Shown here piece after piece: positions 612 through 63,796 of a stretch of 64,000 nucleotides of DNA (position 1 is its first letter; each line of letters starts with the position of its first letter). The stretch covers positions 17,652,288-17,716,287 of the forward strand of contig NC_092676.1 of assembly GCF_964355755.1 (NCBI RefSeq). The letters are read 5' to 3'. This DNA is from Antedon mediterranea. Lineage: Eukaryota; Echinodermata; Crinoidea; Comatulida; Antedonidae. The notes under the pieces were generated by a model that searched no databases, was not told the DNA's origin, and was given only the letters and a program-made list of their open reading frames with translations. Both the position numbers and the translations under genes were made by a program.

Positions 612-713
612 CAGCAGCAAGTGTCGAACCTCCCACAACCATAGCACCAACTACTGTAGAAGCAACCACAAGAGAACCAACAACGATACAACAATCTACC
701 ACAAACCAACTTG
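612..713 (+). CDS. Thr/Pro-rich linker exon 1
   Basis: An exon bounded by a CAG acceptor and a GTAACT donor, phase 1 at both ends, 102 nt. It encodes a Thr/Pro/Glu-rich stretch including VEPPTTIAPTTVEATTREPT, probably an O-glycosylated, mucin-like stalk between folded domains. It is longer than the later linkers (63-72 nt) but has the same composition and phase. Membership of the same gene as the later cassettes is inferred from this similarity. Confidence 0.6.
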
Positions 714-1613
714 GTAACTATTTTCCTATTTAACTTCGGTATTTGCAATACAGTATCTATATATAAATTATGATTAATTCTGACATAGGCGAGCACAATG
801 CAAAAACTTCGGTACAAATCTCCGCCTTGGATACCTACCTTATCTATCTCAGATGTACCGAGAAACGTAGTTTTCAGTTTGACGCTATTATTCCATATTT
901 CTATCTTAGGAAGATATTATAAAGAGTTTTTTAACAAAATATATGATTTCAACAGTAGATTTTCAACTCAATTTCAATTCTTCCCAGTCAAAGTAATTTC
1001 CGGGTTTATGATAAGTTCACCTTGCAACAACCTGGTTTCAACTATTTTCTCTCTTTTATACACAAGGGAGCAGTTAAAATAATAGATTTGACCCTAAAGG
1101 TGACTGGAAACAGGCACTTTCCATCAATCAATACAGTGTCCCTTTGGAAGACGAAAAAAAAATAAATTGGCCATTAGTCATAGCCATTTCAGTTTTTTGT
1201 TTATTTTCAAACATACCGCACGTGTGTGTGAATTAGGTACAGTAGTTAAAAAATAGAAATTATACTGCAAATTAATAAAGATCAAATTGAATATACGCCA
1301 TAAAGAATCGGAATATATTGTGGGGAATAGTATTATAAAATTACATATAGAGATTTGATGATAAGACATTTTGTTTAAAATCGAGTGAAATCCCGATAGC
1401 TGAGTTTTATTGAGTAAGCTGGCAGGAGTAACTGTAGGCTATCTTCCTGTGTCCCGTTAGGACCGAGATGTCTGCCCATGTTGCAAGCCGTAATGTCTTC
1501 TTTCTTGGGCCCACTCTGTCACGGCAGTTAGTTTCCAATAAAACATCACTTTGAATAATAATCCCCCCCCCCCCCCAACCCAACTATCTAATAAACGTCC
1601 ATCCACATTTATA

Positions 1614-3205
1614 ACTAGAAAGCCACTCCGAGAGGGCATACCTCCGCCTACTGTAAAATTCTCCTACATAAGATTTCTCCGGTAAAAAAAATATATATAT
1701 ATATTTGTGTGTGTCTTAATGCTGTTTGTGATTTAGGCTAATTTCATTACAAGCATGTGTATGCAAGTTTGGTGTAATGGTTATGTAACAAGCCTTTCAA
1801 TTAACAGTAGCTTCAGTTGACTAACAATAGAACAGCAACGCGAAAATCAAACGAGTGAATTTGAAAAGAAATAGGTTTTTTAAACTACTCGCATCAAAAA
1901 AACGTGCACATTAAATCAAATTATGTTTTAAAATTACAAATCACAAATTATAACTCTTGCCTCTTGTTCAAAAATGAAGTTTTTTGGACAAGTAGTTCTC
2001 GAGAAAATGCAATTTCAGTTTACTTGTTACTTTAAGACTGCTCGCCGGCTTTTGAAAAATTCTGTCCTATCTTTTAACACTAGCAGGTCTAAAAAAGTAT
2101 ACTAAAAAGTGGTCCAGAATTGGGACTGTGGTCCCAAATGGTCCCAAAATTTAATGGAATGGTCCTTGACCACATATCTATCTGTCTATTCATTTTGGTA
2201 AAGATCTTGTAATTACTTTTTGAGTAATCCTGCTAACAAACAAACAAACAAATGAAAGCACTCAGAAACTGAGTGAAATACTTGGCAAAATATATCCACT
2301 GACTCGGAGCATGTTGAAAGATACATTTTTTTTGCTTTAGGTATTAGCTTTACATTGTTAAAATCCTGCTGGGGTTAATAATTTGTTTAAATAATTTTTT
2401 GATACAAACAACTCCGGCATTGCAACAATGACCTTTCTAAAATCAAGATTTACCAGAATAATGATCGAGGAGTGTCTTGAAGCTGTACCGATTTGCGGCG
2501 CCTCTGCCTTAACCCATGTAGTAATATATCAATTTACCTGAAAATCAATAGGCATGTTCTGTAAGTATATACCTGATGAAATAAGGAAGGACACACGCTG
2601 GTGCTAACAAAACTAATTATCAACTTACAATAGTTTAATTTGAATAACAATAGAACACCAACGCGAAAAACAAACGGGTGAATTTGAAAAGAAATAGGTT
2701 TTTTAAAACTACTCGTCTCAAAAAACCTGTACATTAAATCAAATTATGTTTTGAAAATTACAAATCACAATTTATAACTCTTGCCTCTTGTCCAAAAATG
2801 AGTTTTTTAGACAAGTGGTTGTCGAGAAAATGTAATTTCAGTACACTTGTTACTTTAAGACTGCTCGCCGGCTTTTGAAAATTGTCTCCTATCTTTTAAC
2901 ACTAGCCGGACTGACAATAATATCATTTTTATTATTTGTGAAGTTATTAATAAACCAATTTTGTTGATTTTCAATAGGCATGGTCTGAAGGTATATACCT
3001 ATCTACACCCAAAAATTTAGAACGATAACTTGAAAAACTGTAGGTGCTATCGTGCTAACAAACAAACAAACAAACAAACAAACATACAAACATACATACA
3101 AACAAAGTGAATACTATACTTGGCAAAATTCTTTTTGCCAAGTAACAAACAAACAAACAAACACACGCTACCGATTACATATACCTCCTTGGCGGAGGTA
3201 AATAA
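1614..3205. repeat. Interspersed repeat with cctccgcc/ggcggagg ends, composite copy
   Basis: The left end ACTAGAAAGCCACT...ACCTCCGCC and the right end CTCCTTGGCGGAGGTAAATAA recur at 22863-23354, where a shorter copy of about 490 bp has the same ends. The short inverted motif ACCTCCGCC/GGCGGAGGT at the two ends suggests a TIR-type non-autonomous element. The copy here contains a second internal partial copy (about 2630-2890 repeats 1810-2050) and looks like two fused or nested copies. It carries several (AAAC)n tracts. Confidence 0.55.
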
Positions 3206-3897
3206 CACAATTATACTATTTGTATTAGAATTCATCGCACTGTTATCAACAATTTACCAAGCATTTGTTATTCTTTTTTACCACTTTTCATATCTATTAG
3301 AGGATTTCATTTGATTATAAATGTTACCATATTATTAAAACTAAAAAATTTAACATATATCCCTCGAATAAAGGGCCCTACCAAACAATAAAAACTATAC
3401 TTTAAACTGTTATTAATCATCTAAAACACTTTGAAACAAAGTAGTTTAGTTTTACGAATGTCAAGCATTTTCAATAATGGTAACCGACAGAAAACGTACA
3501 AGAAGAACATTATCATTCCGAGAACCATCGTCTGCACTTCCTAGAGGGGGAGCGAGCTCACCCTCTAGTTATATATTAATTTTTATTATTTTAATTTTGG
3601 ATAAACTACAAACCTTTTAACATTTTCTTAGTAAATGAAAGTTTAAATTACCAAAATAATGGTTTAAAATTAAACTGCTAAAAATTTGTTGGAACATATA
3701 TATTATATTAATAGGCCACTATGTGATTTTGTGTCATTTTTTGTTAAAAGCAAAACTCCAGCTGATTAAGTTTCTCTAAAAATTTGCCATTTTTCTAAAA
3801 AATGCTCAAGGGAGTCAAATCCAAGATGGCCACCAATACTTAAAATATCCAATAAATGTAACATATTGGACAAAGTAACACCCATTATAAACTAGAC

Positions 3898-6590: not shown

Positions 6591-6662
6591 CACAAATCAC
6601 TACTTCAGAACCAACAACACCAGTACCTACAACCATAGTACAAACCACTGCTTTTCCAATTG
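6591..6662 (+). CDS. Thr/Pro-rich linker exon 2
   Basis: A 72-nt exon between a TTTGTCAG acceptor and a GTAAGC donor, phase 1-1. It encodes AQITTSEPTTPVPTTIVQTT followed by AFPI (first Ala completed across the junction). It is near-identical in protein to linkers at 20613, 22376, 26686, 44742 and 54401, which sit upstream of a CTLD exon or CTLD remnant, as this one does (CTLD-1 at 8590). Confidence 0.8.
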
Positions 6663-8589: not shown

Positions 8590-9027
8590 CATGTAATTTT
8601 TACTATCAGTCATCACAGTATACAGCTTTTAGATTTGAATATTATGAAGGAATAAATGTGACTGAAGCAAAACATGAATGTGGATTGTCAAATGGAAAAC
8701 TTGCTAGTCTCACAACAGTTGAAGAAGTTGGATTTGTATCTCAATATCTTGACAATAACTGTCCAAACAATCAACCTAGTGGTGATCAATACTTAATTGG
8801 GTTATCCCGTGAAGCTGGATTAGAAAGATCAGATAACCAGAACTGGAAGTGGGAAACAGGAGAAGCTTTGGATTCATCTGTGATACCATGGGGTCCAAAT
8901 CAGCCTAGTAGAAGCAATAACAATAATGCTGTTGTTCGATTTCAACAAATAGAAAGACAAATGTTTGACAAAAAAACCGATTGAATGATATTGGACAGAA
9001 GTTCAATAGGTTTTCTTTGTGAATATG
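8590..9027 (+). pseudogene. CTLD exon 1 with an in-frame TGA
   Basis: A complete 438-nt phase 1-1 exon (TTTTCAG acceptor, GTAAGC donor) with the length of intact CTLD-4 and CTLD-5. The frame encodes CNFYYQSSQYTAFRFEYYEG, HECGLSNGKLASLTTVEEV, DNNCPNNQPSGDQYLIGL, NWKWETGEAL, WGPNQPS and GFLCEY, matching a C-type lectin-like fold with the WxWE and W..NQP regions. A TGA at 8982-8984 replaces the Phe/Tyr/Asp-type codon found at this place in the paralogs. The reading frame on both sides is intact. If translated, it would truncate the protein before FTP-1. Because the exon is symmetrical it could be skipped. A base error or polymorphism is possible. Confidence 0.8.
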
Positions 9028-11484: not shown

Positions 11485-13493
11485 GGGGCTCCTTCGTCTA
11501 ATGGGTACAGGACATCAACAATATTGGGGCTCCTTCGTCTAATGGGTACAGGACATCAACAATATTGGGGCTCCTTCGTCTAATGGGTACAGGACATCAA
11601 CAATATTGGGGCTCCTTCGTCTAATGGGTACAGGACATCAACAATATTGGGGCTCCTTCGTCTAATGGGTACAGGACATCAACAATATTGGGGCTCCTTC
11701 GTCTAATGGGTACAGGACATCAACAATATTGGGGCTCCTTCGTCTAATGGGTACAGGACATCAACAATATTGGGGCTCCTTCGTCTAATGGGTACAGGAC
11801 ATCAACAATATTGGGGCTCCTTCGTCTAATGGGTACAGGACATCAACAATATTGGGGCTCCTTCGTCTAATGGGTACAGGACATCAACAATATTGGGGCT
11901 CCTTCGTCTAATGGGTACAGGACATCTACAATATTGGGGCTCCTTCGTCTAATGGGTACAGGACATCAACAATATTGGGGCTCCTTTGTCTAATGGGTAC
12001 AGGACATCAACAATATTGGGGCTCCTTCGTCTAATGGGTACAGGACATCAACAATATTGGGGCTCCTTCGTCTAATGGGTACAGGACATCAACAATATTG
12101 GGGCTCCTTCATCTAATGGGTACAGGACATCAACAATATTGGGGCTCCTTCGTCTAATGGGTACAGGACATCAACAATATTGGGGCTCCTTCGTCTAATG
12201 GGTACAGGACATCAACAATATTGGGGCTCCTTCGTCTAATGGGTACAGGACATCAACAATATTGGGGCTCCTTCGTCTAATGGGTACAGGACATCAACAA
12301 TATTGGGGCTCCTTCGTCTAATGGGTACAGGACATCAACAATATTGGGGCTCCTTCGTCTAATGGGTACAGGACATCAACAATATTGGGGCTCTTTCGTC
12401 TAATGGGTACAGGACATCAACAATATTGGGGCTCCTTCGTCTAATGGGTACAGGACATCAACAATATTGGGGCTCCTTCGTCTAATGGGTACAGGACATC
12501 AACAATATTGGGGCTCCTTCGTCTAATGGGTACAGGACATCAACAATATTGGGGCTCCTTCGTCTAATGGGTACAGGACATCAACAATATTGGGGCTCCT
12601 TCGTCTAATGGGTACAGGACATCAACAATATTGGGGCTCCTTCGTCTAATGGGTACAGGACATCAACAATATTGGGGCTCCTTCGTCTAATGGGTACAGG
12701 ACATCAACAATATTGGGGCTCCTTCGTCTAATGGGTACAGGACATCAACAATATTGAGGCTCCTTCGTCTAATGGGTACAGGACATCAACAATATTGGGG
12801 CTCCTTCGTCTAATGGGTACAGGACATCAACAATATTGGGGCTCCTTCATCTAATGGGTACAGGACATCAACAATATTGGGGCTCCTTCGTCTAATGGGT
12901 ACAGGACATCAACAATATTGGGGCTCCTTCGTCTAATGGGTACAGGACATCAACAATATTGGGGCTCTTTCGTCTAATGGGTACAGGACATCAACAATAT
13001 TGGGGCTCCTTCGTCTAATGGGTACAGGACATCAACAATATTGGGGCTCCTTCGTCTAATGGGTACAGGACATCAACAATATTGGGGCTCCTTCGTCTAA
13101 TGGGTACAGGACATCAACAATATTGGGGCTCCTTCGTCTAATGGGTACAGGACATCAACAATATTGGGGCTCCTTCGTCTAATGGGTACAGGACATCAAC
13201 AATATTGGGGCTCCTTCGTCTAATGGGTACAGGACATCAACAATATTGGGGCTCTTTCGTCTAATGGGTACAGGACATCAACAATATTGGGGCTCCTTCG
13301 TCTAATGGGTACAGGACATCAACAATATTGGGGCTCCTTCGTCTAATGGGTACAGGACATCAACAATATTGGGGCTCCTTCGTCTAATGGGTACAGGACA
13401 TCAACAATATTGGGGCTCCTTCGTCTAATGGGTACAGGACATCAACAATATTGGGGCTCCTTCGTCTAATGGGTACAGGACATCAACAATATT
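11485..13493. repeat. 41-bp satellite, 49 tandem copies, tRNA 5'-half-like unit
   Basis: The array spans 2009 bp, exactly 49 x 41. Nearly all units are identical. I see about eight variant units (for example CTCTTTCG at about 12392, 12965 and 13252, and TTCATC at about 12109 and 12847). Within the unit the segment GTCTAATGGGTACAGGAC can form a D-stem (GTC/GAC), preceded by a GC-rich start. The segment TCGTCTAATGG resembles a Pol III A box. No B box or anticodon arm is present, so it is not a tRNA gene. There are no unique spacers, so it is not CRISPR-like. Confidence 0.95.
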
Positions 13494-13655
13494 GGGAAAA
13501 CTCCCCTCACAGCATTCTTTTATTAAAAGTAATAGACACAAAAACAGAACATATTAACAACAAAAGTATAGTAGCATTATGTAAAGTACAATTTAAATGT
13601 TGAGTAAAAGCTGTATACTACTACATTATTAAATGTATTACATGTTCTTTTACAG

Positions 13656-13879: not shown

Positions 13880-13999
13880 AGATACAGCTGCCAGGATCTG
13901 TACAAGCTTATGAAAGTTCTACTTATTTGGGCTCACCGGCCAATGCAATTGATGGCAACACAGATACTTTTTTTTTCAATGGATCATGTACCCATACAC
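13880..13999 (+). CDS. FTP-1 exon a
   Basis: A 120-nt phase 1-1 exon encoding the N-terminal third of a fucolectin/F5-8-like domain: EIQLPGSVQAYESSTYLGSP, NAIDGNTD and GSCTHT. The AIDGNT motif (calcium-site region) and the CTHT histidine, which in F-type lectins contributes to fucose binding, are both present. The acceptor is CTTAG and the donor GTAAGT. Confidence 0.85.
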
Positions 14000-14761: not shown

Positions 14762-14863
14762 CTAATAAAGCTAATCAATGGTGGTATGTTGACCTTGAGA
14801 CACCGACAGCTATTGCAAAAGTTGTAATATTTAACAGAGTTGGAAGTTGTGTCCCCAGTTGTG
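14762..14863 (+). CDS. FTP-1 exon b
   Basis: It encodes QWWYVDLETPTAIAKVVIFN followed by RVGSCVPSC, the central strands of the FTP domain. 102 nt, phase 1-1, donor GTAAGT. The acceptor is ambiguous between AG at 14760-14761 (used here) and 14769-14770, both in phase. The sugar-binding RxDxxxxR motif is not kept: R-V-G and an expanded cysteine loop replace it. Confidence 0.75.
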
Positions 14864-19430: not shown

Positions 19431-19640
19431 AAAGCAGATTGGTAGGAGCTAAAGTTCGTATTGGTAATAACAATATATCACCTTTTGATGGAAATACACA
19501 ATGTGGAAATACTGTCTCGTCGTCTATGGTGTTAACAAATCCTATAGAATTCATTTGTAATGAAATTGTAATTGGTCAATATGTAAGCGTTTATCATGAA
19601 CAGGGTTTCGTCACTCTTTGTGAAGTGAAAATCTACAGAG
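19431..19640 (+). CDS. FTP-1 exon c
   Basis: A 210-nt phase 1-1 exon with a TATTTAG acceptor and GTAAGA donor. It encodes SRLVGAKVRIGNNNISPF, NTQCGNTVSSSM, NPIEFICNEIVIGQYVSVY and LCEVKIYRG, the classic C-terminal part of an eel-fucolectin/pentraxin-like FTP domain, with the G.Y.S.Y.....L..CEV end motif. Confidence 0.9.
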
Positions 19641-20612: not shown

Positions 20613-20675
20613 TGCAAAGCACTACTTTAGAACCAACAACACCAACCATGGTACAAACCACTGCTTTTCCAATTG
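20613..20675 (+). CDS. Thr/Pro-rich linker exon 3
   Basis: A 63-nt phase 1-1 exon between TTTCTCTAG and GTAAGC, encoding QSTTLEPTTPTMVQTTAFPI. It is three codons shorter than the standard 72-nt linker. It lies upstream of decayed CTLD-2. Confidence 0.8.
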
Positions 20676-22375: not shown

Positions 22376-22447
22376 CACAAAGCACTGTTTTGGAACCAAT
22401 AACACCAATACCTACAACCATGGCACAAAACACTGATTTTACTGTTG
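22376..22447 (+). CDS. Thr/Pro-rich linker exon 4
   Basis: 72 nt, phase 1-1, TTTCTAG acceptor and GTAAGC donor. It encodes AQSTVLEPITPIPTTMAQNT and DFTV. No CTLD exon follows before the next linker (23532), so the cassette that belonged to it is lost or this is a solitary linker. Confidence 0.75.
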
Positions 22448-26685: not shown

Positions 26686-26757
26686 CACAAAGCACTGCTT
26701 CAGAACCAACAATACCAATACCTACAACGATGGCACAATCCACTGATTTTCCAATTG
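26686..26757 (+). CDS. Thr/Pro-rich linker exon 6
   Basis: 72 nt, phase 1-1, TGTCTAG acceptor and GTAAGC donor. It encodes AQSTASEPTIPIPTTMAQST and DFPI. It precedes CTLD-3. Confidence 0.85.
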
Positions 26758-44741: not shown

Positions 44742-44813
44742 CACAAAGCACTGCTTCAGAACCAACAACACCAATACCTACAACCATGGCACAATCCACT
44801 GATTTTCCAATTG
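44742..44813 (+). CDS. Thr/Pro-rich linker exon 7
   Basis: 72 nt, phase 1-1 (TTTCTAG acceptor, GTAAGT donor). It encodes AQSTASEPTTPIPTTMAQST and DFPI, nearly identical to 54401-54472 including about 160 bp of upstream intron. It precedes CTLD-4. Confidence 0.88.
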
Positions 44814-44934
44814 GTAAGTTTATTTAAAAGTTTATTTTAAATTTCAAGATAGATTTCAATTTTCCAGTTTCAAGTTCAATTTCAATACTTCCTGATAAAT
44901 GAAGTTTCTGTATAAGATGCAAAATGTAGAAGAG

Positions 44935-47717
44935 CCACAGCCCACTTTTCTATTTACGAATCCATGTTCTATTTGTAATAAAATGAAAGACCTTCAAGTA
45001 ATACTGGAACACAATAACATCCAAGTTTGTACACTTGCGGAAACATGGTTTAATGGAGACTATATTTGCAAGGTCAGTAACTATAACTATTTCTATAAGA
45101 GCCGCACAAATACCAGAGGAGGAGCAACCTACGTCCACAACAGCATTCCTTCTGATCACATTGATTTTATTACTGTTCCAGACGAACTAGAATGGGTTTG
45201 GGTCAAATTACAGCCTTATAAGCTTCCCCGTGAAGTTTCTGAAATATATGTGTGTGCCATTTATTGTAGCCCTAGCCAAAACAAAGACCATCAGTGTGAC
45301 CTCTTAAACAATCTTAGAAATTCGATTGACACTATTGTTCAAGAAGAAATTTAGCAAAAGTCATTATTGCTTCGGATTTTAACAGTGTTGATATCTCCCC
45401 TCTAATTAAAAATGTTGTTGATTTGCACCAAGTTATTAAAGATAAAACCAGAGGAGACAAAATTCTTGATTTCATAATATCGGACCTTAAAGACTTTTAT
45501 ATGACTCCAGTAAATCAAGCCCCACTTAGAAAAAGTGATCACAATATCATTATTTGGAAACCGCTAAACTCAATTAAGTGTAATGGTAAAATGGTTACAA
45601 AGATTTTTAAGCCTTGTACTGATTCGTCGATGAGAAGTTTCGGAAACTGGATTACCAAATTTGACTGGTCGCAGGTCTATAGTATAAAAGATGTAGATGA
45701 TAAACTGAATATAATGAACGATACCCTCACCACCTCGTACAACAAATTTTTTCCTAACAAACATTTGCGAGTTTATTCTACAGATAGACCTTGGATTACT
45801 CCATACATTAAGAAACTTATCAGGTATAGACATTATCAGGTATAGACAAACTGCTTTTAGGAAGAAAAAACTTAGAAATAAAGTAATTTGGGAAATAAAG
45901 AAAGCTAAGGAGAAGTACTATCGTTATAAAGTAAAAACGCTTGAGGTGAGCAATCCCCGTAAATAGTATGACAAAGTGAAGCAGATTTTTGGTAAACGTA
46001 AAGACAAACCAAGAATTACATTTGATAATCCTTTACCGATCCCAGATTCCGTTGCCTCTAAAAAGATTCATTTGTCGTGAACTGGATCCTCTCAAACTTG
46101 ATGAATTGCCTACAGTACATACCTCCCAGCTGAGAGTCCACCGCCACAAATGTTATGCTTTGAAGTCAAACAACAATTATTAAAAGTACAGATAATTAAA
46201 TCAGTTCCACCTGGAGAAATTCCACCAGTTTTCATCAAGGAATTTGCATCTGAAATAGCAGAGCCCCTAACGCATGTATTTAATTCTTCTTTGAAAGAGG
46301 GTATTGTACTCAAAGCTTGGAAACAAGCTACCGTTTTATCGATACCAAAGAAAAAAGGTACAGTCAGTATTGAACAGATTAGACCAATCTCGCTTACGCC
46401 ACTGTTTATCTGAAACTAAATGGTTAAATGAAGACCTATCTACCATTATAGGTAAACAGCAGTTTGCTAATGTCAAAGGTGTCAGCACGAGTCATTACCT
46501 TATTGGACTCTTACATTACATTCTTTCTGGACTGGAAAAACCTGACCAGGTACTAATCAGTAAGATGATATCAATTGGTGTCAGGAAATCTATCATCCTA
46601 TGGTTCTGTAGCTTCTTAACTTATAGAGAACAAAGAGTGCTTTATGGTGGCGCTATTTCCTGTTGGACATCTATATTTTGTCGTGTTCCACAAGAAAAGC
46701 AATCTGGCCCAAGCCTTTTTCAAGTAATGGTCTTGTCTCAATGACTCGGCATTAGATTGCATTACAAGGTGGAAATTTGTCAACGATCTAACCTTCGCTG
46801 ATATCTCGAAAAATAACTGTCTGGACTCTATTCAATTGTACTTTAGTAATTTAGAGGAATGGTGTAAAATAAATAAAATGGCCCTTAACCCTAATAAGTG
46901 TAAATCGGTGGAGATTCTTTTGCAAAACTCCTGGTTACTATGATTTACTGACTAATAATGGAGTCCAAGCTTTTAGGTGTAACTATCCAAGATAACCTTA
47001 AGTGGGATACTCACATTGGTGAGATCTGTAGCACTAAATTAGGCCAAAAGCCAGGCATATTGTGTTGGTACTCGGTCTTCGGTCCTCCTGGTGCACCAGA
47101 AGATCAGTTAATCAAGATTTATATATCTTTCATACTCTCTATAATTGAATATGCTTGTCCTACCTGGCACTCCTTCCTGACTTCCGAATTAAGCTGTGAC
47201 CTCGAATCGGTCCAGAAGAGGTTTTTAAGAATTGTACTATAGAGGAGGTACTATTTGTACACTACAGCCCTTGAGCAATTTCTCTTGATAGGCTCTGTGA
47301 CCGTTGTCTCCAGCTTGTCCTAAAGTTTGGGAGGAGTGTCTATGAAAACTTTAGTGATGTTATCCCCAATACCCGTGCTGAAGCGACAGGTAGATCTCTC
47401 AAAAACGCGAACAAGATATCCCAAATTAAATGTAGAACAGAGAGATTTAAGAAATCCACACTCCCATTCCTGATTTACAATGACCTAATAGTGCAATAAT
47501 ATATATGTGAAATTCGTAATTTTGATCGATAGGCCTACGGATGATTATTAATTTTACTCACAGTTTGTAAATTTGTAATTGTATATACTTTTTTTTTTAT
47601 TGCATTTGTGTAAATGTTACTCGTTTTTTGGTATATATTTTATGTTAATGTTACTGGACGCAATTCAGTTTTGTACTGCCATGTCTTTGTTTTAATAAAC
47701 CACAATAAATTTTTAAA
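44935..47717 (+). mobile_element. Degenerate LINE (CR1/L2-type) in the linker 7 - CTLD-4 intron
   Basis: The endonuclease part (44935-45560) has PTFLFTNPCSICNKMKDLQ, TLAETWF and RKSDHNIIIW. The RT part (about 45840-47240) survives in pieces: PPGEIPPVFIKEF, ATVLSIPKKKG, LGVTIQDNLKWDTHI, LSIIEYACPTWH. Several stops and frameshifts (for example after 45354 and 45845) inactivate it. The paralogous intron at 54473-54894 lacks it, placing the left junction at GTAGAAGAG (44926-44934) and the right junction just before ACAACAACTGACAAATG. Confidence 0.85.
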
Positions 47718-47753: not shown

Positions 47754-48191
47754 TATGTACTTTTTACTATCAGTCATCACAGTATACTGCTTTTAGAGTT
47801 GAATATTATGAAGGAATAAATGTGACTGACGCAAAATATGAATGTGGATTGTCAAGTGGAAAACTTGCTAGTCTCACAATAGTTGAAGAGGTTGAATTTG
47901 TATCTCAATATCTTGACAATAACTGTCCAAACATTCAACCTGGTGACTCTCAATACGTAATTGGGTTATCCCGTGAAGCTGGATTAATACAATCAAATGA
48001 CCAAAACTGGAAGTGGGATTCGGGAGAAGCTTTTGATTCCTCTGTGATGGAATGGGGTTTAAATCAACCTAATTCAGGCAATAACTATGATGCTTATGTT
48101 CGTTTTTATCCAAGAAGTAGTATCATGTATGATAAAAAAATGGACTTTATGTTATCAGACAGAAGTGTAATTGGTTTCTTATGTGAATATG
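47754..48191 (+). CDS. CTLD-4, intact C-type lectin-like exon
   Basis: 438 nt, phase 1-1 (TTTCAG acceptor, GTAAGA donor). It encodes a whole domain of 146 residues: CTFYYQSSQYTAFRVEYYEG, YECGLSSGKLASLTIVEEVE, NNCPNIQPGD, YVIGLSREAGL, NWKWDSGEAF, WGLNQPNSG, FMLSDRSVIGFLCEY. Four cysteines are visible. The usual calcium/sugar site EPN reads QPN, and there is no WND motif, so calcium-dependent sugar binding cannot be predicted. It probably acts as an extracellular recognition domain. Confidence 0.92.
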
Positions 48192-49317: not shown

Positions 49318-49335
49318 AAAATACTATACTTCAAG
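49318..49335 (+). CDS. Microexon before FTP-4
   Basis: 18 nt, phase 1-1 (ATTACAG acceptor, GTAAAT donor). It reads ENTILQ across junctions. It is the paralog of 34196-34213. Confidence 0.75.
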
Positions 49336-49694: not shown

Positions 49695-49820
49695 AGGTAG
49701 AAATAACAGATTTTGATGCTCACCAGAGTTCTACAGATTCTCGATTCAACTCTGTTGCCAGCAATGCAATTGATGGTAATTTATCTGGGAATCTCTTTGA
49801 ACATTCTTGTACACACACCG
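49695..49820 (+). CDS. FTP-4 exon a (first of three tandem copies)
   Basis: 126 nt, phase 1-1 (TTGCAG acceptor, GTAAGT donor). It encodes EVEITDFDAHQSSTDSRFNS, VASNAIDGNLSGNLFEHSCT. The 3' two-thirds of this exon plus its intron were duplicated twice downstream. Inside the exon, CTACAG|ATTCTC (49731-49742) is an in-phase cryptic acceptor matching the acceptors of the two copies. Confidence 0.9.
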
Positions 49821-49896
49821 GTAAGTGAAACAAAGCATACATCATTTCGATCTTGATTGGACTTTCTTTTTTTGTGATATATGGTACTAAATGCAG

Positions 49897-49980
49897 ATTC
49901 TCAATACTACTATGTTGCCAGCAAAGCAATTGATGGTAATTTATCTGGGGATCTCTTTGACCATTCTTGTACACACACCG
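49897..49980 (+). CDS. FTP-4 exon a', tandem copy 2 (candidate alternative exon)
   Basis: 84 nt, phase 1-1 (AATGCAG acceptor, GTAAGT donor) encoding DSQYYYVASKAIDGNLSGDL and FDHSCTHT. It lacks the first 14 codons of exon a. It can splice in frame from the microexon, from exon a, or to exon b. The preceding intron is only 76 bp. Whether it is used, and whether exclusively, cannot be seen here. Confidence 0.65.
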
Positions 49981-50057
49981 GTAAGTGAAACAAAGCATAC
50001 ATCATTTCGATGTGGATTGGACCTTCTTTTTTTGTGATTATGGTACTATAAATGCAG

Positions 50058-50141
50058 ATTCTCAATACTACTATGTTGCCAGCAAAGCAATTGATGGTAA
50101 TTTATCTGGGGACCTCTTTGACCATTCTTGTACACACACCG
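50058..50141 (+). CDS. FTP-4 exon a'', tandem copy 3 (candidate alternative exon)
   Basis: 84 nt, phase 1-1 (AATGCAG acceptor, GTAAGT donor), protein identical to the copy at 49897 (only synonymous change seen, GAT/GAC). The preceding intron is 77 bp. It is part of a tandem duplication with a unit of about 160 bp. Confidence 0.65.
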
Positions 50142-51186
50142 GTAAGTGAAACAAAGCATACATTATTTTGATCTTGATTGGACTCATCTCGTCTTGACAT
50201 GGTAATGTAGGCTGTATACAGTTCTAGATCAAATACATGTATGAAGAGTGTGTTGTTATTCCAAAACTATAACCAGGATAATTTCGTTTTGCTTTACTTC
50301 TGTTGTCATTTTTAGTTTATAAATACAAATAAATCTGAAATATCCAATTGAATGTCACTAGCTTAAACAATAATCATGTTTAGTCATGTTTTTCAATACC
50401 AATTACTTCCTTTCGCTTGACTAAAATCCTATATAAGTGTTTAGAGGTACAGTATATCCCAATTGAGAATTCACATTTTACAAAGTGTCCTCAATGTACA
50501 ACTACAACAGAGTATAGCAAAACGTTTATTTTGCTCCCTGTTGTTAGACATGAAAGTAATATATTTCTATCAAGGTATTATAGATTGGCTATGGTGCTAT
50601 AGCAATTCAAAAAGTGATTCTTCATAGAGAGGGAACTGACAAGATGGTGGTTACAATCGACCTTTCAATACTCCCATACGCAGTCACGTACTACTATGCC
50701 TGTGTTGAGTGTATCAGCATGAGAAATATTCTTTACATTCTCACATACGATATGCAACGCAGCGCATTCTATATGATCCTTGTATGCTATTACCAAGAAA
50801 TTATTCAATTCATTGCAATTAACAATATATTTAATTTTATAAAAAAAAAAAACTGTGCTTTTAAAAAGAATGTGTGTTTTATGTGGTCTCTAATTTATTA
50901 CTTTAGATTATTGTTTTATATACTAAATAATACTTTTGAACAGATTTATGACTACCTTCTTTTGGAATAATTTTCTTTAGTCAGGCGTACGTTCTCAAGC
51001 CTTCTGCTTTATCTCTATGTATATTTCACATACACCTCATATTAACTGGATGTCACATGATAGGAAATGTACCTCCAGTATTTTATTGCAACCAGTCAAA
51101 ATAATAATTAATTTACTAAATTTTGTTAAAAAATATTAAGTAAATATACTTCACATTCCCTTTTTATTGTTACTTTGATTCTTTAG
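50142..51186 (+). other. Intron, no gene seen
   Basis: AT-rich. Open frames at 50417-50602 and 50614-50970 lack any recognisable feature. The last 150 bp match the intron before 35297. Confidence 0.55.
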
Positions 51187-51276
51187 AGGAAACGTCCAGT
51201 CCTTGGTGGTATGTGGATCTCAGACTACAAATACCAATTGCCAAGATTGTTATTTTCAACAGAGATGATTGTTGTG
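51187..51276 (+). CDS. FTP-4 exon b
   Basis: 90 nt, phase 1-1. It encodes ETSSPWWYVDLRLQIPIAKI and VIFNRDDCC. With exon c it reads R-D-D-C-C-E-N-R, so the F-type RxDx4R motif is kept. Nearly identical to 35297-35386. Confidence 0.92.
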
Positions 51277-51712: not shown

Positions 51713-51925
51713 AGAATAGATTGGTTGATGCTGAAGTTCGTGTTGGAAATAGCAACGTGTTGCCTTTTACTGAAAATACACAGTGTGGTTCTACAATTAC
51801 ATCAGCTATGACAGAATTAAATCCAATTGAATTGATTTGTGACCAAGCAATAACTGGACAATATGTAAGTGTGTACCTACCTGGATCTGAAGTACTGACT
51901 ATTTGTGAGATAATATTATACACAG
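51713..51925 (+). CDS. FTP-4 exon c
   Basis: 213 nt, phase 1-1 (TTTTAG acceptor, GTAAGT donor). It encodes NRLVDAEVRVGNSNVLPF, NTQCGSTITSAM, AITGQYVSVYLPGSEVLTIC and EIILYTG. Very close to 35847-36059. Confidence 0.92.
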
Positions 51926-52239: not shown

Positions 52240-53680
52240 TTCTTTTATTATTCTCGTCGTTTTACTCATATCTGAGTACTTGTGACCATTCTGATGAGGT
52301 GTCTCCATTCTTGCCGATCTTAAGCTTCATTGTAGCAACTGATTATTGGTCGGTTTGTAGCACCACTTATACCATCAATCCATCTGAGTCTCTGTCTTCC
52401 TCTTTTTCGTTTCCCTTCAACTTTCCCATATAATCATTTTCTCCATACTATCTCCATCCCGTCTGGCAATATGTCCAAAGTATTGTAGTTTTTGTTTGAT
52501 AATAGATTCGATTAATGTGCCTTTCTTGCCTATTTCGTGCCTTACACTTTCATTAGTTCTTCTGGCAGTCCATGGAATACCTAGAAGCTTTCTCCAGCAC
52601 CACATCTCAAAAGCTTCAATTCGTTTTTGATCTGCAGCATTAATTACCCATGTTTCACATGCGTACGTTGCAATTGGAAAAACTAGAGCTCCAATTAATC
52701 TAATTTTTGTTGCCTTGCTGATGCTTCTGTCTTTCCATATCTTGTGCATTAAACACATTGATGATTTTGCCATTGCCAGACGACGTTTGATCTCAATGGA
52801 ACATCCACCATGGTTTGAAATCATCGAACCAAGGAAATTAAAGTGGTTGACAACTTCAATTACTTGGTTTCCTGCATGAATGATAGGGTTCTCCTTTTGT
52901 GGGTTAATGATCATCACCTTTGTCTTGCTTACATTTAGAAAATAGCCAAACTTTTCACTCTCCCTTCTTACTTTTTCAACCAGACCTTCCATTTCCTGTG
53001 CATTATCTGTTAATAAAGTAGTATCATCAGCATACCTTATATTATTTATAGTTCTGCCACCAATAGATATTCTACTATTGAAGTTTTCTAGAGCCAATCT
53101 CATAATATATTCTGCATAGACATTAAACAAGTGTGGAGACAGTATGCAACCTTGTCTCACCCCTTGTTTTATTTTAAACCAAGTACTGTCGCCGCATGCA
53201 ATTCTCACAGCAGCTTCCTGGTTATCATATAATGTCCTGAGGAGTTCTACTACATGCCTTGGAAAGCCCATTGCTATTAAAATATTCCAGAGTCTTTGAT
53301 GCTGGACCATATCAAAAGCTTTTGAATAGTCAATAAAGCACATATATAGCGGACGGTTAAATTCAATAGCTCTTTCCATTATATTTCTAATATTTGATAT
53401 TTGGTCTCTTGTACCTCTTTCTTCCACAAAACCTGCTTGTTCTTGAGGAATTTCACGACGAATGTATTGTTTAGTCCTCTCAACAATTATGTACAGCATA
53501 ATCTTACTCGCGTGTGATATCAGAGAGATAGTTCTATTGTTTTTGCATTCTCTTGTATCTCCTTTCTTGGGGAGCGGTATAAATATTGATCTAGCCCAAT
53601 CAGTTGGCCAGCTCTTATCGGTCCATATCAAGTTACATAGATTATGCATTAAAGTGATAGTTACCTTCATCCCCTGTCTC
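52240..53680 (-). mobile_element. 5'-truncated RTE-like LINE (minus strand) with 11-bp TSD
   Basis: The minus-strand frame 53685-52417 encodes RT: TISLISHASKIML, EQAGFVEERGTRDQI, CFIDYSKAFDMVQHQRLW, GVRQGCILSPHLFNVY, IRYADDTTLL, ACETWVINAADQKRIEAFEM, QKLQYFGHIARRD. After a frameshift near 52420 the tail GKRKRGRQRLRWIDGI and DRQEWRHLI follows, with a stop. There is no endonuclease, so it is 5'-truncated. Flanks ATCATATATTA at 52229-52239 and 53681-53691 are an exact 11-bp target duplication. The uninterrupted site is at about 55725-55735. Confidence 0.9.
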
Positions 53681-53747
53681 ATCATATATTAGTAAAGGTT
53701 TATTTATATTAATAATTTGAATGTTTATCAATTTTGTTAATATAGTA

Positions 53748-53772: not shown

Positions 53773-53802
53773 AGGGGCTATTTTGTGAACCAGTTCTATT
53801 AT

Positions 53803-54186
53803 TATTGCCTGTACTATGGAGGTTTAGCCAGCTCATTTAAATCACTCATATATCTTTATTTTTGGCCCGTACCATGGAGGTTTAGCTAGCTCATTTAAAT
53901 CACTCATATATCTTTATTGTTTGCCCATACCAAGGAGGTTTAGCCAGCTCATTTAAATCACTCATATATCTTTATTGTTGGCCCATACCATGGAGGTTTA
54001 GCCAGCTCATTTAAATCACTCATATATCTTTATTGTTGCCCGTACCATGGAGGTTTAGCCAGCTCATTTAAATCACTCATATATCTTTATTGTTGGCCCG
54101 TACCAATGAGGTTTAGCCAGCTCATTTAAATCACTCATATATCTTTATTGTTGGCCCATACTATGGAGGTTTAGCCAGCTCATTAA
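53803..54186. repeat. 58-bp satellite, second array (about 6.6 units)
   Basis: Same unit as 42189-44558 and in the same position relative to the following linker and CTLD exons. The array length differs about six-fold between the two cassettes. Confidence 0.95.
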
Positions 54187-54400: not shown

Positions 54401-54472
54401 CAGAAAGCACTGCTTCAGAACCAACAACACCAATACCTACAACCATGGCACAATCCACTGATTTTCCAATTG
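54401..54472 (+). CDS. Thr/Pro-rich linker exon 8
   Basis: 72 nt, phase 1-1 (TTTCTAG acceptor, GTAAGT donor). It encodes AESTASEPTTPIPTTMAQST and DFPI, with E in place of the usual Q at position 2. It precedes CTLD-5. Confidence 0.88.
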
Positions 54473-54894: not shown

Positions 54895-55332
54895 TATGTA
54901 CTTTTTACTATCAGTCATCACAGTATACTGCTTTTAGAGTTGAATATTATGAAGGAATAAATGTGACTGAAGCAAAACATGAATGTGGATTGTCAAATGG
55001 AAAACTTGCTAGTCTCACAACAGTTGAAGAAGTTGAATTTGTATCTCAATATCTTGACAATAACTGTCCAAACAATCAACCTAGAGGCGATCGATACGTA
55101 ATTGGGTTATTCCGTGAAGCTGGATTAGAAAGATCCAATGACCAAAACTGGAAGTGGGAATCAGGAGAAGCTTTTGATTCCTCTGTGATGGAATGGGGTA
55201 AAAATCAGCCTAGTTCAGCCACTAACATTGATGCTTATGTTCGTTTTAATCCAAGAATCAGTATCATGTTTGATAAAGAAATGTACAAAATGTTATCGGA
55301 CGGAAATATAATTGGTTTCCTGTGTGAATATG
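54895..55332 (+). CDS. CTLD-5, intact C-type lectin-like exon
   Basis: 438 nt, phase 1-1 (TTTCAG acceptor, GTAAGA donor). Domain: CTFYYQSSQYTAFRVEYYEG, HECGLSNGKLASLTTVEEVE, NNCPNNQPRGDRYVIGL, NWKWESGEAF, WGKNQPSSA, MLSDGNIIGFLCEY. Compared with CTLD-4, the linker between NQP and the C-terminal strand differs most, as expected for a ligand-facing loop. No EPN/QPD or WND motif. The intron before it is free of the LINE that fills the CTLD-4 intron. Confidence 0.92.
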
Positions 55333-55786: not shown

Positions 55787-55831
55787 TAGTGTCAGTACCG
55801 ACAACAATAGCACCGACAACTCCACTTGATG
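55787..55831 (+). CDS. Thr/Pro-rich linker exon 9
   Basis: 45 nt, phase 1-1 (TTTACAG acceptor, GTAAGC donor), reading VSVPTTIAPTTPLD. It resembles part of linker 1 (TTIAPTT). It follows CTLD-5. Confidence 0.75.
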
Positions 55832-56278: not shown

Positions 56279-56305
56279 TGTTGACAACTGTACTACCGAC
56301 AACAG
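56279..56305 (+). CDS. Thr-rich micro linker exon 10
   Basis: 27 nt, phase 1-1 (TATTTTAG acceptor, GTAATT donor), reading LTTVLPTT. Its support is composition, phase and position between linker 9 and FTP-5. Confidence 0.55.
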
Positions 56306-56592: not shown

Positions 56593-57634
56593 CACTTTGA
56601 CTGCCAAACACGAAGATCTTCGTTTTTGGAAACACAACGCTTGACTGCCAAACACGAAGATCTTCGTTTTTCGCGTTTTTTTACGAAATCCGGTAGATGG
56701 GTTAATTATTGGTATATACTATAAATATGGACACTATATTCGGTCTGGACCGTGAATATTTACTTTTTGAAAGTAACTAATCTGGTTACGAACGATTGTC
56801 AAAATGGTACCTGTCGAAATAACATACACCGCGCATCACAGTAGCGCGTACAGCGATGGTTTGGCGCATTGTGTATCGGTCGCGCGCTAGCTATGCCGCT
56901 GAAGCATTACAAAGTATGTGGATTGGAATGTTTGTTTGTTTATCTGAATAAAAAATAATGGATGAATTTTCAATATGAAGTCTTTAATTTTATTATTGTA
57001 TGTATACCCTAATTGTTTTGGTGCTTCACTGTAAGTGGCCGAGTTTCACGCAACAAACTTGTTTAGACATGGTAAGAATATTATTATCATCATTTTACTA
57101 GCTAGGCTAGTAGTACTAGGCTATAGCCTAGGCCTAGTCGTAAAACGGTTCTGGACCAACTTTAGGCCTAGTTAACTAGGCCTGGTGTCTTTACTATGTG
57201 GATTTTGGCAAAACATTGATGTAAGATTTATGATTTATAAAATAAAATACATTTTTCGATAGTGATAACTTGTTTTTATAGGCCTACCGGTGCCGTGTAA
57301 GTAATTGTTCGTTGTTTGTTGATCTCACCGGGCGATATTTTCATATTGTGATGTCTTGCACAAAATCGCGTATATCTCAACTTTCTTGCGCAAAACTACG
57401 AAAAACTCAAAAAGTGGGTTACTTTCATTTTACTATTACGATTTACATATTGCGATTTGAAAATCGTTCTTGGTACCATTGTAAAGCTAAAATCTTTTTG
57501 ATTATTTTAGTCTAAATTACATGTAAATCAGATCACATACATAGTTTCAATCAGCTTTGATAAAAACATCGAATTGGGCTATAAACGCTGGCGGTGGCAG
57601 TTTCTAACTGGAAAAACCTCTGGCAGTCAAAGTG
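56593..57634. mobile_element. piggyBac-like non-autonomous element with TTAA flanks
   Basis: TTAA at 56589-56592 and 57635-57638 flank inverted termini CACTTTGACTGCCA (the right end is the exact complement). The left end repeats a GACTGCCAAACACGAAGATC block twice, containing the palindrome CGAAGATCTTCG. No transposase frame is visible in about 1.04 kb. TTAA targets with a C-rich short TIR are typical of piggyBac. Confidence 0.8.
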
Positions 57635-58287: not shown

Positions 58288-58419
58288 AAGTTACATTAAG
58301 TACAGATTCAGAAGCTCATCAAAGCTCAACAGATGAAATATTAGGGCGTGATGCTGATAGTGCAATTGATGGTAACACAGATGGTAATATGTTACGAAAA
58401 ACGTGTACAAAAACACAAG
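58288..58419 (+). CDS. FTP-5 exon a
   Basis: 132 nt, phase 1-1 (TTTTTAG acceptor, GTATAA donor). It encodes EVTLSTDSEAHQSSTDEILG, SAIDGNTDGNML, RKTCTKTQ. The sugar-binding His is Lys here (CTKT for CTHT). Confidence 0.88.
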
Positions 58420-58920: not shown

Positions 58921-59010
58921 ATACTGACTTGAATCCATGGTGGTATTTAGATATTGGATCACCTTCAGCTATATCGAAGATTGTAATATATAACAGAGAA
59001 GATTGTTGTG
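58921..59010 (+). CDS. FTP-5 exon b
   Basis: 90 nt, phase 1-1 (ATTTAG acceptor, GTAAAA donor). It encodes TDLNPWWYLDIGSPSAISKI and VIYNREDCC. Joined with exon c the motif reads R-E-D-C-C-E-D-A, so the second Arg is absent. FTP-5 thus lacks two of the three canonical fucose-binding residues. Confidence 0.9.
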
Positions 59011-60424: not shown

Positions 60425-60637
60425 AAGATGCGTTGGTTGGTGCTGAAGTTCGTATTGGTAATAGCAATATTTCACCCTTTAATACTAATACACAATGTGG
60501 GTCAACAGTTACATCGTTAATGGCAGAATCAAACCCTCTTGAATTCATGTGTAATCAACCAATAACAGGACATTATGTTAGCGTATATATTCCAGGAGGA
60601 GACACGCTTTCACTTTGTGAAGTCAAACTATATAGAG
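60425..60637 (+). CDS. FTP-5 exon c
   Basis: 213 nt, phase 1-1 (CTGTAG acceptor, GTACAT donor). It encodes ALVGAEVRIGNSNISPF, NTQCGSTVTSLM, NPLEFMCNQPITGHYVSVYI and LSLCEVKLYRG. It is the last FTP module, adjoining the PKD/REJ part. Confidence 0.92.
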
Positions 60638-60798
60638 GTACATTAAGATTGATATATTGACATAGACATGTAAAATACAGTATTGCATAAGATTGTAATA
60701 CATTTATTAATACAGTATTCTTTTATAAATGCATCTTCTGTCAAAAATTTCCATATCTGAGTACTTTTTAGATTTCTGTGTTATTATTTAAATTACAG

Positions 60799-60906
60799 TG
60801 AGACCAGATTTTGAGATGGAATGTTTAACAATTAATACTTGCTTTCAAGAAGACTCAGGATTTTATGCCATCCCTATTGATACTGCAGTACAATTTAATA
60901 GCTATG
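60799..60906 (+). CDS. Junction exon: start of first PKD-like domain
   Basis: 108 nt, phase 1-1 (TTACAG acceptor, GTATGG donor). It encodes RPDFEMECLTINTCFQEDSG and FYAIPIDTAVQFNSY. The tail PIDTAVQFNSY-G runs into the PKD fold completed by the next two exons. The cysteine-containing N-terminal part is unassigned. Confidence 0.82.
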
Positions 60907-61451: not shown

Positions 61452-61543
61452 GTTACACTGTATCTTGGTCACTGACTGACCTAAACAGCATGATTACAGA
61501 TTTTGTGTCAAACCGTTCTTCATTCATACATACATTCCATGAG
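61452..61543 (+). CDS. PKD-like domain exon
   Basis: 92 nt, phase 1 in, phase 0 out (TTGTAG acceptor, GTAAAT donor). It encodes YTVSWSLTDLNSMITDFVSN and RSSFIHTFHE, matching the Y.W.(D).....HTF...G strand pattern of PKD domains. It continues with SGSYNIT in the next exon. It is the first break from the all-phase-1 pattern. Confidence 0.82.
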
Positions 61544-62007
61544 GTAAATTACAGACACATTAGGTCAACATCGTGAGATCCCTACCTGTATATACTCTAC
61601 ATATGCAATAATATTCCCAAATATGGACACCCCTTATATGGAAATGCCTTGTAGCGTGCCGTGTAAACGTCCATCACGCATGAGATTTTTTAGCTAAAGT
61701 CAAATTTTAGCTAAAATAAAACGGTTTACTTTCAGTCTTAAACAAATATAAAGGTCACCTTAAACAATGATATTCAACAAAGTGAAACCATTTATTTATT
61801 TATTCAACTTTCTTTTTAAAGGGTAGCTCTAACAACTGTACTACAGCACTAGTACAGCTGACTTAGGAGGTCAATACACAATTATACCGACATTCAAAAA
61901 ATAAAATTTATATGAATGATTGTTTCTGAAAATGATGAATGTTGCATTTATAGCAGGAATCTGAGCTTTTAAATGTTACGCTTATTGGGTATTATTATTT
62001 TTCACAG
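61544..62007 (+). other. Intron, nothing recognised
   Basis: AT-rich intron. A short hairpin CTGTACTACAGCACTAGTAC plus AG lies near 61834-61857. No other feature. Confidence 0.5.
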
Positions 62008-62901
62008 AGTGGTTCATACAATATCACAATGACAAAAAGTGGCAACGATATTTCTCAACGACAAATCTTGGTATTGAAACCAATAAGTGGAATTACTATA
62101 GTGGAAGGACCAAGAGTTGATGTTCTAGAAACAAAAAGATTCACAATTTCACTTTCAAATATTGGATATGATTCTTGTATTTTCATTGATTTTGGAAATG
62201 GAGAAAAGGTACGATATGGCAATGAGGTGTGTAGTCCTTATACAATGGTTCCTAGAGCTGGAGAACTGACCAATGTTGTTGATGTCGCTACTGTGTGCCA
62301 ACATAATGGTAGCTTCAATTTGCAAATATTTGGTTTTGACAAGTTTTCATATGAAAGGGTGTCGTTGATTTATGCCATTATTCCTGAAACAGTAGAATGC
62401 AATGTACCAACTGTAAATATATTCAACCATCATGCAGACCCTCTTATTCCAAGAAAGATTGAATTGAGTCAAGATATTGTAATTGTTGCAGAGCTTATAG
62501 TAGATTGTCAAGTATTTAATAATGAAAAATCTTGGACTATTGAAGAGGTATCCCCAAGAACTGGTTTGGCAATCGAGGGAACATTACAAACAGTAAATGC
62601 CATCAACTTCGGAAATAATTTAGTAGGTTCCGATGATACGCTAACATTGGTCCTAAGAAAGAATAGTCTGAGAATAGGCCATTACCGTTTTATCATCACA
62701 GTTGCTATGGAGTCTGGTCGTTCAAATGGACTAGATATTTCCGCTTTTCAAACTGAATATGTTGAAGTTGTTGCTAGTTCTTTACAAGTAAAACTATTAG
62801 AAGGTTCGTCTACATATATTACAGTCGGTTATGGTGATACTTTGAACTTTTTTCCGCAAGATTTGTCCAAAGATCCAGATGTTTTACCTCAAGAAGAACA
62901 G
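62008..62901 (+). CDS. Large exon: end of PKD-1, second PKD-like domain, start of REJ domain
   Basis: 894 nt, 298 codons, phase 0-0 (TTCACAG acceptor, GTATAT donor). Residues 1-20 (SGSYNITMTKSG) finish the first PKD domain. Residues about 25-128 form a second PKD-like domain of polycystin-1 type (ITIVEGP, SCIFIDFGNGE, NGSFNLQIFGFD). From about 130 an REJ-like region starts (VECNVPTVNIFN, RKIELSQDIVIVAELIVDC, SWTIEEVSP, LRIGHYRFIITVAMESGR, LQVKLLEGSS, LSKDPDVLPQEEQ). REJ plus PKD identifies the polycystin-1/egg-jelly-receptor family. Extracellular. Confidence 0.9.
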
Positions 62902-63639
62902 GTATATTGCATTTCATATAATTATAGATAACAGCATGTCACAGTATAAAAAGAAAGATTAAAAAATATGTTGCAATTAAAAAAGAACTTATGTGCAGTT
63001 TGAACAGAAATATTGTTCAACCTATTATTAAACTGTCTATTTCCTGTAGGCCTTTTACTGAATGTGAAAACTAATTTTGTTCCATAATTTATACTATCAA
63101 AAATAAAAATGTTTCTATAATTTATACCATAAAAGAAAAATGTTATTTTTCACATCCAGTTAAATTTAACAATAGGCCGACCATATTTCTCATAAAACTG
63201 CAATCAATTAATTTTCTGACCAATAACGTCATTTACCACTGTAATATTTGAGTTAAGTCGAAGAAACCCAAAAAACTTTCTGTATGAGAGTAACACAACA
63301 GAGATCAAAGATAAAAACATTTCTTGGTCTGGTCTTGGTAAAATAATATCTCTGATATTGTTGGTCAGTATAGATACTTATCCATTCTCAGTTGTAATAA
63401 ATTATGCTTTTTAACTTTTGCATTATCTCTAAAAACATAATTTGAAAAAATTGTTATAATTAACTCAAACATTCAACTTTTGCATTATCTCTAAAAACAT
63501 AATTTGAAAAAATTGTTGATGGTCGCCATAATTAACTCAAACATTCACATATTTAGTTTAGGGTTTTTTATATTATGTTAAGTATGTTAGTAATGCTTTC
63601 CATTCTGATTCCTTTTAATTTTTTCATTCGATGATGTAG
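62902..63639 (+). other. Intron with a tandem duplication
   Basis: A segment of about 60 bp (AACTTTTGCATTATCTCTAA and following) occurs at about 63413-63472 and again at about 63474-63545, the second with a GATGGTCGCC insertion. No exon is seen. Confidence 0.65.
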
Positions 63640-63796
63640 ACGTTTGATTCATTTGCTTATTATTGTCGTCGTGCAGAAGAAACTTTCAATGTAACAGAAG
63701 ATGGAGAACTAGATGCACATATCACAGCAGATATACCATCAACAACCGCTCTGGCGACTGCTGAAAATGAACATTTTCCTGGTTGTTTTGGCACTG
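63640..63796 (+). CDS. REJ domain exon (continues past the window)
   Basis: 157 nt, phase 0 in and phase 1 out (GATGTAG acceptor, GTAAGT donor). It encodes TFDSFAYYCRRAEETFNVTE, DIPSTTALATAENEHFPGCF. It continues the DPD...F.Y.C....C pattern of the REJ module begun at 62008. Further exons must lie beyond 64000. Confidence 0.82.

Follow-up and report, generated by a model that had tools for sequence, protein, structure and literature searches.

Antedon mediterranea carries, on contig NC_092676.1 (C7 below), a long run of exons for F-type-lectin (FTP) domains and C-type-lectin-like domains (CTLDs) that stops just short of sequence resembling the PKD and REJ regions of polycystin-1-like proteins. 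The question that this locus raises is whether an array of lectins has here been built into a channel gene, or merely lies beside one, and in what state of repair it is found. We analysed the 64,000 nucleotides of C7:17652288-17716287 (plus strand; hereafter the window) together with 50 kb upstream and 30 kb downstream, and searched the genome of 354 Mb in 18 contigs. Positions are given in window coordinates, w, equal to the C7 position minus 17652287, so that exons upstream of the window carry negative values. Our reading, to which we give a probability of about 0.63, is that of one large plus-strand gene of the polycystin-1/REJ family, spanning some 93 kb between the first exon recognised and the exon for the channel, with a putative sugar-sensing ectodomain. 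The locus is a candidate member of this family, real and unusual, and the gene reaches past the window at both ends. The predicted order of its parts is an F5/8-type C (F5/8C) domain, Thr/Pro linkers, five FTP domains with two intact CTLDs interspersed among them, a PKD/REJ region, GPS, TM1, PLAT, a transmembrane region and the polycystin channel.

The exons that identify the family lie mostly beyond the window. Within the 30 kb after its end, on the plus strand, Pfam finds Polycystin_dom at 113.4 bits and PKD_channel at 110.1 bits, and the channel exon matches solved polycystin-2 with an expectation value (E) of 3e-44, the pore stretch IMGNFDF aligning to ILGDINF. PLAT (PF01477) matches downstream on the same strand at 38.4 bits over the second half of the domain only, and so does GPS (PF01825) at 37.4 bits, in two exons joined by eye that hold the motif CLCTHLTSF, within which the cleavage site presumably falls. 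REJ exceeds its cut-off of 25 bits about 1.7 kb past the window, where a piece of 61 positions scores 35.2 bits (C7:17717938-17718117); in the last large exon of the window it remains below, at 22.8 bits on the open frame 61954-62931 (21.9 in a second run). Since REJ, GPS, PLAT and channel exons follow one another past the window on one strand, this looks like a single polycystin-1/REJ-family gene, and as the lectin exons can be joined in phase to its first PKD/REJ exons, the polycystin/REJ-like protein of the original prediction, which had been made from the sequence of the window alone, is supported. The domain search proposed there matched F5_F8_type_C_2, Lectin_C, REJ, GPS, PLAT and PKD_channel; PKD repeats gave no Pfam match up to E 1, and the PKD label reflects resemblance by eye. 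A large minisatellite, open in several frames, occupies the intron between the PLAT and channel exons (approximately w 80000-87000).

On the lectin side, all five of the FTP domains that had been predicted are present on the plus strand, in three exons each (A, B and C), and for every one of them phase 1-1 borders can be chosen. Given in the order A, B, C, they lie at 13880-13999, 14762-14863 and 19431-19640 (FTP1); 23920-24042, 25776-25889 and 26032-26241 (FTP2); 34777-34899, 35297-35386 and 35847-36059 (FTP3); 49695-49820, 51187-51276 and 51713-51925 (FTP4); and 58288-58419, 58921-59010 and 60425-60637 (FTP5). In two cases, exon B of FTP1 and exon A of FTP5, a border homologous to that of the other copies was preferred to the best-scoring site; the donors of FTP2 and FTP5 exons A read GTTAGT and GTATAA. 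Two domains were run in spliced form, and both pass the F5_F8_type_C_2 cut-off of 27.8 bits, FTP4 with 69.0 and FTP5 with 71.3; among F-type lectins of solved structure, FTP4 matches 3cqo (FBP32; E 8e-43) and 1k12 (E 3e-24). Single FTP exons fell below the cut-off: among five open frames run, three had no match and two reached 26.1 and 16.1 bits. A profile built from the window's own copies finds exon C in all five (E 9e-44 to 2e-45); such own-profile matches, for FTPs and CTLDs alike, hold by construction, because the matched copies built the profiles, and the independent tests are those against Pfam and the PDB. Behind FTP4 exon A, a 160-bp tandem repeat (49734-50184) carries two extra 3' halves of that exon, donors included.

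Between the lectins lie the Thr/Pro linkers, of which about ten had been predicted and of which nine have usable splice sites, phase 1-1, with a degenerate tenth near 23525. They are Lk0 (612-713, where an earlier acceptor at 582 scores slightly better), Lk1 (6591-6662), Lk2 (20613-20675), Lk3 (22376-22447), Lk4 (26686-26757), Lk5 (44742-44813), Lk6 (54401-54472), Lk7 (55787-55831) and the short Lk8 (56279-56305). Lk1 to Lk6 are clearly related, and the five of them that have the same length are 81-99% identical in DNA sequence. A micro-exon of 18 nt stands before each of FTP3 (34196-34213, phase 1-1) and FTP4 (49318-49335). A possible start exon at 34162, hydrophobic and with a donor score of 5, was rejected when alignment with the copy at 49.3 kb resolved it into the first of these micro-exons.

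The CTLDs are in a less regular state. Homology gives five copies, as predicted, and all are on the plus strand, as are the FTPs, so that the claim of a single orientation for the lectin cassettes stands; the lone minus-strand match to the CTLD profile has an E of 1, which is chance level. The profile matches four copies at E 8e-72 to 2e-84, and CTLD2, which was outside the profile, in two pieces (E 3e-19 and 4e-26). Pfam Lectin_C was run on CTLD1, CTLD3 and CTLD5, which score 26.5-32.2 bits against a cut-off of 22.6, and on a piece of CTLD2, which had no match; CTLD4 is 82% identical to CTLD5. Against the PDB, CTLD5 gave no match at E 0.01. Intact exons are restricted to CTLD4 (47754-48191) and CTLD5 (54895-55332). 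CTLD1 (8590-9027) retains its two splice sites but is interrupted by an in-frame TGA (8982-8984); CTLD2 (21310-21680) is a frameshifted relic that lacks its 5' part and acceptor; and CTLD3 is split between a 5' part (28570-28899) and a 3' tail with its donor (32736-32840), 3.8 kb apart. The gap is filled by a minus-strand non-LTR retrotransposon (28900-32735; RVT_1 63.7 bits, Exo_endo_phos 37.2 bits), with approximate borders and no clear target-site duplication. Because three of five CTLDs are thus broken, five working cassettes are not supported. The broken exons could be skipped, since the cassette exons are phase 1-1. Alternatively, CTLD1 might be used as a poison exon, whose inclusion would end translation and yield either a short soluble F5/8C-linker-CTLD protein or message decay. 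That CTLD1 keeps both splice sites, and its frame until the stop near its end, would suit such a use; the lesions of CTLD2 and CTLD3, however, are of other, unrelated kinds, in keeping with simple decay, and we regard a working poison exon as improbable.

How far the exons cohere as one gene is best judged from their phases. Joined in silico from the F5/8C domain to 62901, leaving out CTLD1 to CTLD3, 33 exons agree in phase and give 1756 codons with 0 stops; because every exon was chosen for its open frame, the weight of this chain lies in the agreeing phases and the homologous borders. Begun at Lk0, the chain contains one stop with CTLD1 and none without it. The F5/8C domain, 1.0-1.7 kb upstream of the window, consists of two plus-strand exons (w -1654 to -1350, C7:17650633-17650937; and w -1096 to -961, C7:17651191-17651326) that together score 65.4 bits in Pfam and end in phase 1. 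At the other end, FTP5 exon C (phase 1) is followed by the joining exons PKDa (60799-60906, phase 1-1) and PKDb (61452-61543, phase 1-0) and by the large PKD/REJ exon (61954-62901, phase 0-0), and the phases fit throughout. The two joining exons were not listed in the original prediction; with them, its claim that the lectins lead in phase into the PKD/REJ region holds, while inside the window Pfam recognises no PKD domain and no REJ domain above its cut-off. That these exons are really spliced in this way, and that the transcript continues to the channel, we infer.

The same junction bears on the possibility of two genes with separate promoters, the first a secreted F5/8C-FTP-CTLD lectin ending soon after FTP5 and the second a polycystin beginning at about 60.8 kb, or at 56975 with FTP5 alone. 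The donor of FTP5 exon C (GTACAT) is weak and read-through from it meets a stop at 60658, and just upstream of FTP5 a short ATG-initiated, signal-like stretch (56975-57020) offers a possible inner start. However, the phase-1 donor of that stretch, GTGCTT, is poor, and the short stretch 60640-60800 holds neither AATAAA nor ATTAAA. The first PKD/REJ exon, moreover, looks like an internal phase-1 exon, and the intron of 161 bp that separates it from FTP5 exon C holds only two ATGs and no plausible start: the one ATG whose frame stays open as far as a phase-1 donor does not resemble the beginning of a signal peptide, and its donor scores 0. With no poly(A) signal in that stretch and no plausible start in the intron, separate genes were rejected as the favoured explanation, and we consider them improbable.

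The single gene that we prefer has an array with a layered history. Six of six pairs among CTLD1, 3, 4 and 5 (CTLD3 by its 5' part; CTLD2, too broken, was dropped) show a synonymous divergence (dS) of 0.12-0.21, whereas the eight pairs of FTPs between the groups FTP1/2, FTP3/4 and FTP5 show 1.08-3.13, several near saturation; within groups, dS is 0.29 for FTP1/FTP2 and 0.06 for FTP3/FTP4. The FTP split is therefore old, the CTLDs having spread, or been homogenised by conversion, later, and the origin of all cassettes by copying one FTP+CTLD unit was rejected on this disagreement. Of the cassette duplication that had been proposed, fixed FTP+CTLD units throughout are thus not upheld, but the last event was indeed the duplication of a whole cassette, FTP3-Lk5-CTLD4 to FTP4-Lk6-CTLD5: the stretches 34.1-48.4 kb and 49.2-55.5 kb are colinear in micro-exon, FTP, 58-bp minisatellite, linker and CTLD, interrupted by other sequence, retrotransposon included. 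This minisatellite, at 42188-44557 (41 copies) and 53799-54184 (about 7 copies), lies just before Lk5 and Lk6 and, as part of the duplicated cassette, may aid unequal exchange. FTP1 and FTP2 differ sharply between exon A (dS 0.96) and exon C (0.056), which suggests gene conversion at the level of exons. Another minisatellite, of 41 bp in 49 copies that are 99% alike, lies between CTLD1 and FTP1 (11485-13496). Further retrotransposon sequence was found at 39005-40801 (plus strand; a 598-aa open frame with RVT_1) and 52417-53688 (minus strand; a 423-aa open frame with RVT_1), and fragments were seen by eye at 44899-47242 (plus strand), one of them having no Pfam match.

Between groups, the ratio of nonsynonymous to synonymous divergence (dN/dS) of the FTPs is 0.12-0.33 in eight of eight pairs, with upper limits of at most 0.53; the values are rough, dS being near saturation, and they point to long-term constraint on the FTPs across groups. 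Within the recent cassette pair, the exons of CTLD4 and CTLD5 differ at 43 of 438 positions, mostly in the second half, and the adjoining introns at 12 of 240 (Fisher p 0.028). Proven positive selection was nevertheless rejected: dS is raised too, dN/dS is 0.89, and although the introns next to these two exons differ by about 5%, other introns of the recent duplicates differ by 4-21%, some of them by as much as the exon. Gene conversion or uneven divergence fits the difference as well.

These values also bear on whether the array is simply a relic, its lesions marking a function already lost. To the three broken CTLDs such a reading can add three places in the window where Pfam detects reverse transcriptase, a fourth seen by eye, and several weak splice sites. 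Set against it, the five FTPs, nine linkers, two CTLDs, the F5/8C domain and the first PKD/REJ exons all have open frames between AG/GT borders, the GPS, PLAT and channel exons that were tested are open as reading frames, and the between-group FTP ratios lie well below 1. Decay of the gene as a whole therefore seems to us very improbable.

What the surviving lectins might bind can be judged in part from their motifs. The fucose site of eel agglutinin is described in PMC5712786, in the passages on that structure, as a triad of His52, Arg79 and Arg86; the definition also includes the segment R-X-D-X4-R/K and, for the cation, the motif hhDGx. The spacing is written there as X24, yet the residue numbers leave 26 positions between His52 and Arg79. 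H-X26-R-X-D-X4-R is complete in FTP3 and FTP4, and the cation motif, as AIDGN, occurs in all five FTPs. In CTLDs, the classical calcium/sugar motif consists of EPN or QPD together with WND. CTLD4 has QPN and CTLD5 QPS, with WND in neither, so that classical calcium-dependent sugar binding is not predicted for them. The double-lectin ectodomain first proposed is thus to be read with caution, the full fucose motif occurring in two of five FTPs and the classical CTLD motif in neither intact CTLD.

In the mechanism that we consider likely, that of a sugar-sensing channel receptor, FTP3 and FTP4 (and perhaps other FTPs with altered specificity) would let the long multivalent ectodomain attach to fucosylated glycans of a partner surface or of a matrix. 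Through the ectodomain, cleaved at the GPS, such binding would act on the polycystin channel and admit cations. The CTLDs, rather than binding sugar classically, may touch protein or serve as an internal agonist, like the CTLD-bearing N-terminus of mammalian polycystin-1 (PC-1). Because its exons are phase 1-1, the array would be able to lose broken CTLDs when they are skipped in splicing, and to gain length when cassettes are duplicated.

Several observations weigh against this receptor and the single gene behind it. The phase-joined chain ends at 62901, and from there to the GPS exons continuity depends on strand, order and domain matches; the fit of phase from FTP5 to PKDa would by itself occur by chance one time in three. 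The donor of FTP5 exon C and the acceptor of FTP1 exon B are weak, the latter having been chosen by homology with FTP2 where stronger in-frame acceptors lie upstream. Simple scans of the 50 kb upstream and of the window, with a dedicated scan of 56.3-61.45 kb, gave no convincing start exon and only weak hydrophobic candidates, w -16659 and w -13221 among them, and a start at 56975 would exclude most of the lectin domains. Three FTPs are without the full fucose motif: in FTP1 and FTP2 the segment is broken after R (the R-x-D being lost in FTP1 exon B, and the motif disrupted in FTP2 exon B), and in FTP5 two of the three triad positions are replaced, K and A standing for H and the last R. Within the recent pairs no constraint is evident, dN/dS being 1.34 (0.64-4.46) for FTP3/FTP4 and, for CTLD4/CTLD5, the 0.89 already given (0.43-2.49). 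Finally, two AlphaFold models are of low confidence, with mean pLDDT of 33.6 and 32.7. Upstream, the gene is probably bounded by a minus-strand open frame that runs leftwards from near w -22058, is 1374 aa long and, judged by eye, contains leucine-rich repeats; a cysteine-rich open frame near w -34752 is a further neighbour on that side.

What the proposed receptor recognises may be the coat of a gamete, a microbe or an adjacent cell. By analogy with other systems a gamete ligand is plausible, though we hold it less likely than not. The lectins of a real gene might instead serve immunity, symbiosis or ciliary cell-cell sensing, the mechanism being the same and the ligand another, for which we put the chances at a little short of even. 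F-type lectins have immune roles according to the sections of PMC5712786 concerned with them, and the functions of sea urchin REJ proteins beyond SpREJ1 and SpREJ3 are given as unknown in the relevant part of PMC1934368. The genome, moreover, is rich in both lectin types, with at least 76 FTP exon-C matches and 154 matches to Lectin_C when 150 of 529 candidates were scored. No CTLDs close to those of the locus were found elsewhere, the best outside identity being 44% (54 matches, 6 rows of them from the locus). Among the FTP matches listed, the nearest lie at C7:11.73-11.78 Mb (63-70% identity on exon C), in an array that shares the A/B/C exon split and the alternation of FTPs with another exon type but differs in that the partner exon has no Pfam match and a kringle adjoins it. 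There, at C7:11759000-11768000, tandem FTP exons alternate with an exon of 157 aa, and the kringle beside them scores 59.6 bits. Among the FTP and Lectin_C matches listed, from the candidates scored, none lies within 100 kb of another REJ locus, and the joining of FTP to polycystin seems confined to this gene within this genome, though weak matches may be missed. Innexin gave two weak matches only, genome-wide, and GFP gave none, an outcome that does not demonstrate its absence; two contig starts that were inspected read N over their first 200 bases.

The coupling of lectin recognition to calcium entry, both in fertilisation and at cilia, has long been debated as a question of mechanism. F-type lectins appear here to be built into the REJ/polycystin channel gene itself, an arrangement that could couple the recognition of sugars directly to an ion channel, and the frame-neutral modular exons, with cassettes visibly born and lost, would make the locus a good case of the diversification of a recognition ectodomain. 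Among the titles and opening parts of abstracts listed by searches of open-access PMC, none links an F-type lectin to REJ or polycystin; three of 20 papers shown out of 32 (PMC3269628, PMC7911577 and PMC7404283) contain an F-type-lectin term along with polycystin or REJ, and the architecture may exist unannounced in animal gene sets.

Among the closest known counterparts are mammalian polycystin-1 and the PKD1L proteins, which likewise join a CTLD-bearing ectodomain to GPS, PLAT and a polycystin core; they have one CTLD, with LRR/WSC or SUEL domains in place of the F5/8C domain and the F-type lectins. The N-terminus of PC-1, CTLD included, activates the channel, as set out in part of PMC7728438, and the mentions of polycystin seen in PMC3269628 concern domains of the rhamnose-binding/SUEL type. 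The sea urchin proteins SpREJ1-10 also have REJ and GPS domains, and several of them PLAT and part of a channel; SpREJ1-3 carry CTLDs, SpREJ3 has SUEL as its second lectin, and SpREJ1 binds fucose sulfate polymer; unlike the present gene, they are presented in those parts of PMC1934368 with no F-type lectin named and no alternating lectin array. Drosophila furrowed and CG9095 combine an F-type lectin with a CTLD and a predicted transmembrane domain, but have CCP repeats, and the account of them in PMC5712786 describes no polycystin part. The same source portrays oyster sperm bindin, in the sections on that protein, as an acrosomal binding protein, with no CTLD, REJ or channel described; its likeness to the crinoid locus lies in one to five F-type-lectin repeats that vary by recombination, splicing and selection, in the loss of the His-Arg-Arg triad from some repeats, and in a retrotransposon and a microsatellite within the gene. 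Taken to its full extent, this likeness would make the crinoid gene a fusion of a REJ/polycystin channel with an array of fucose lectins that, as in bindin, varies in copy number, its phase 1-1 cassettes being duplicated, converted and lost within the species. In such a gene the skipping or inclusion of broken CTLDs would give receptors specific to the individual and the recognition of glycans on mates or microbes would open the channel directly; we think so complete a parallel unlikely, and offer it as the boldest form of the comparison.

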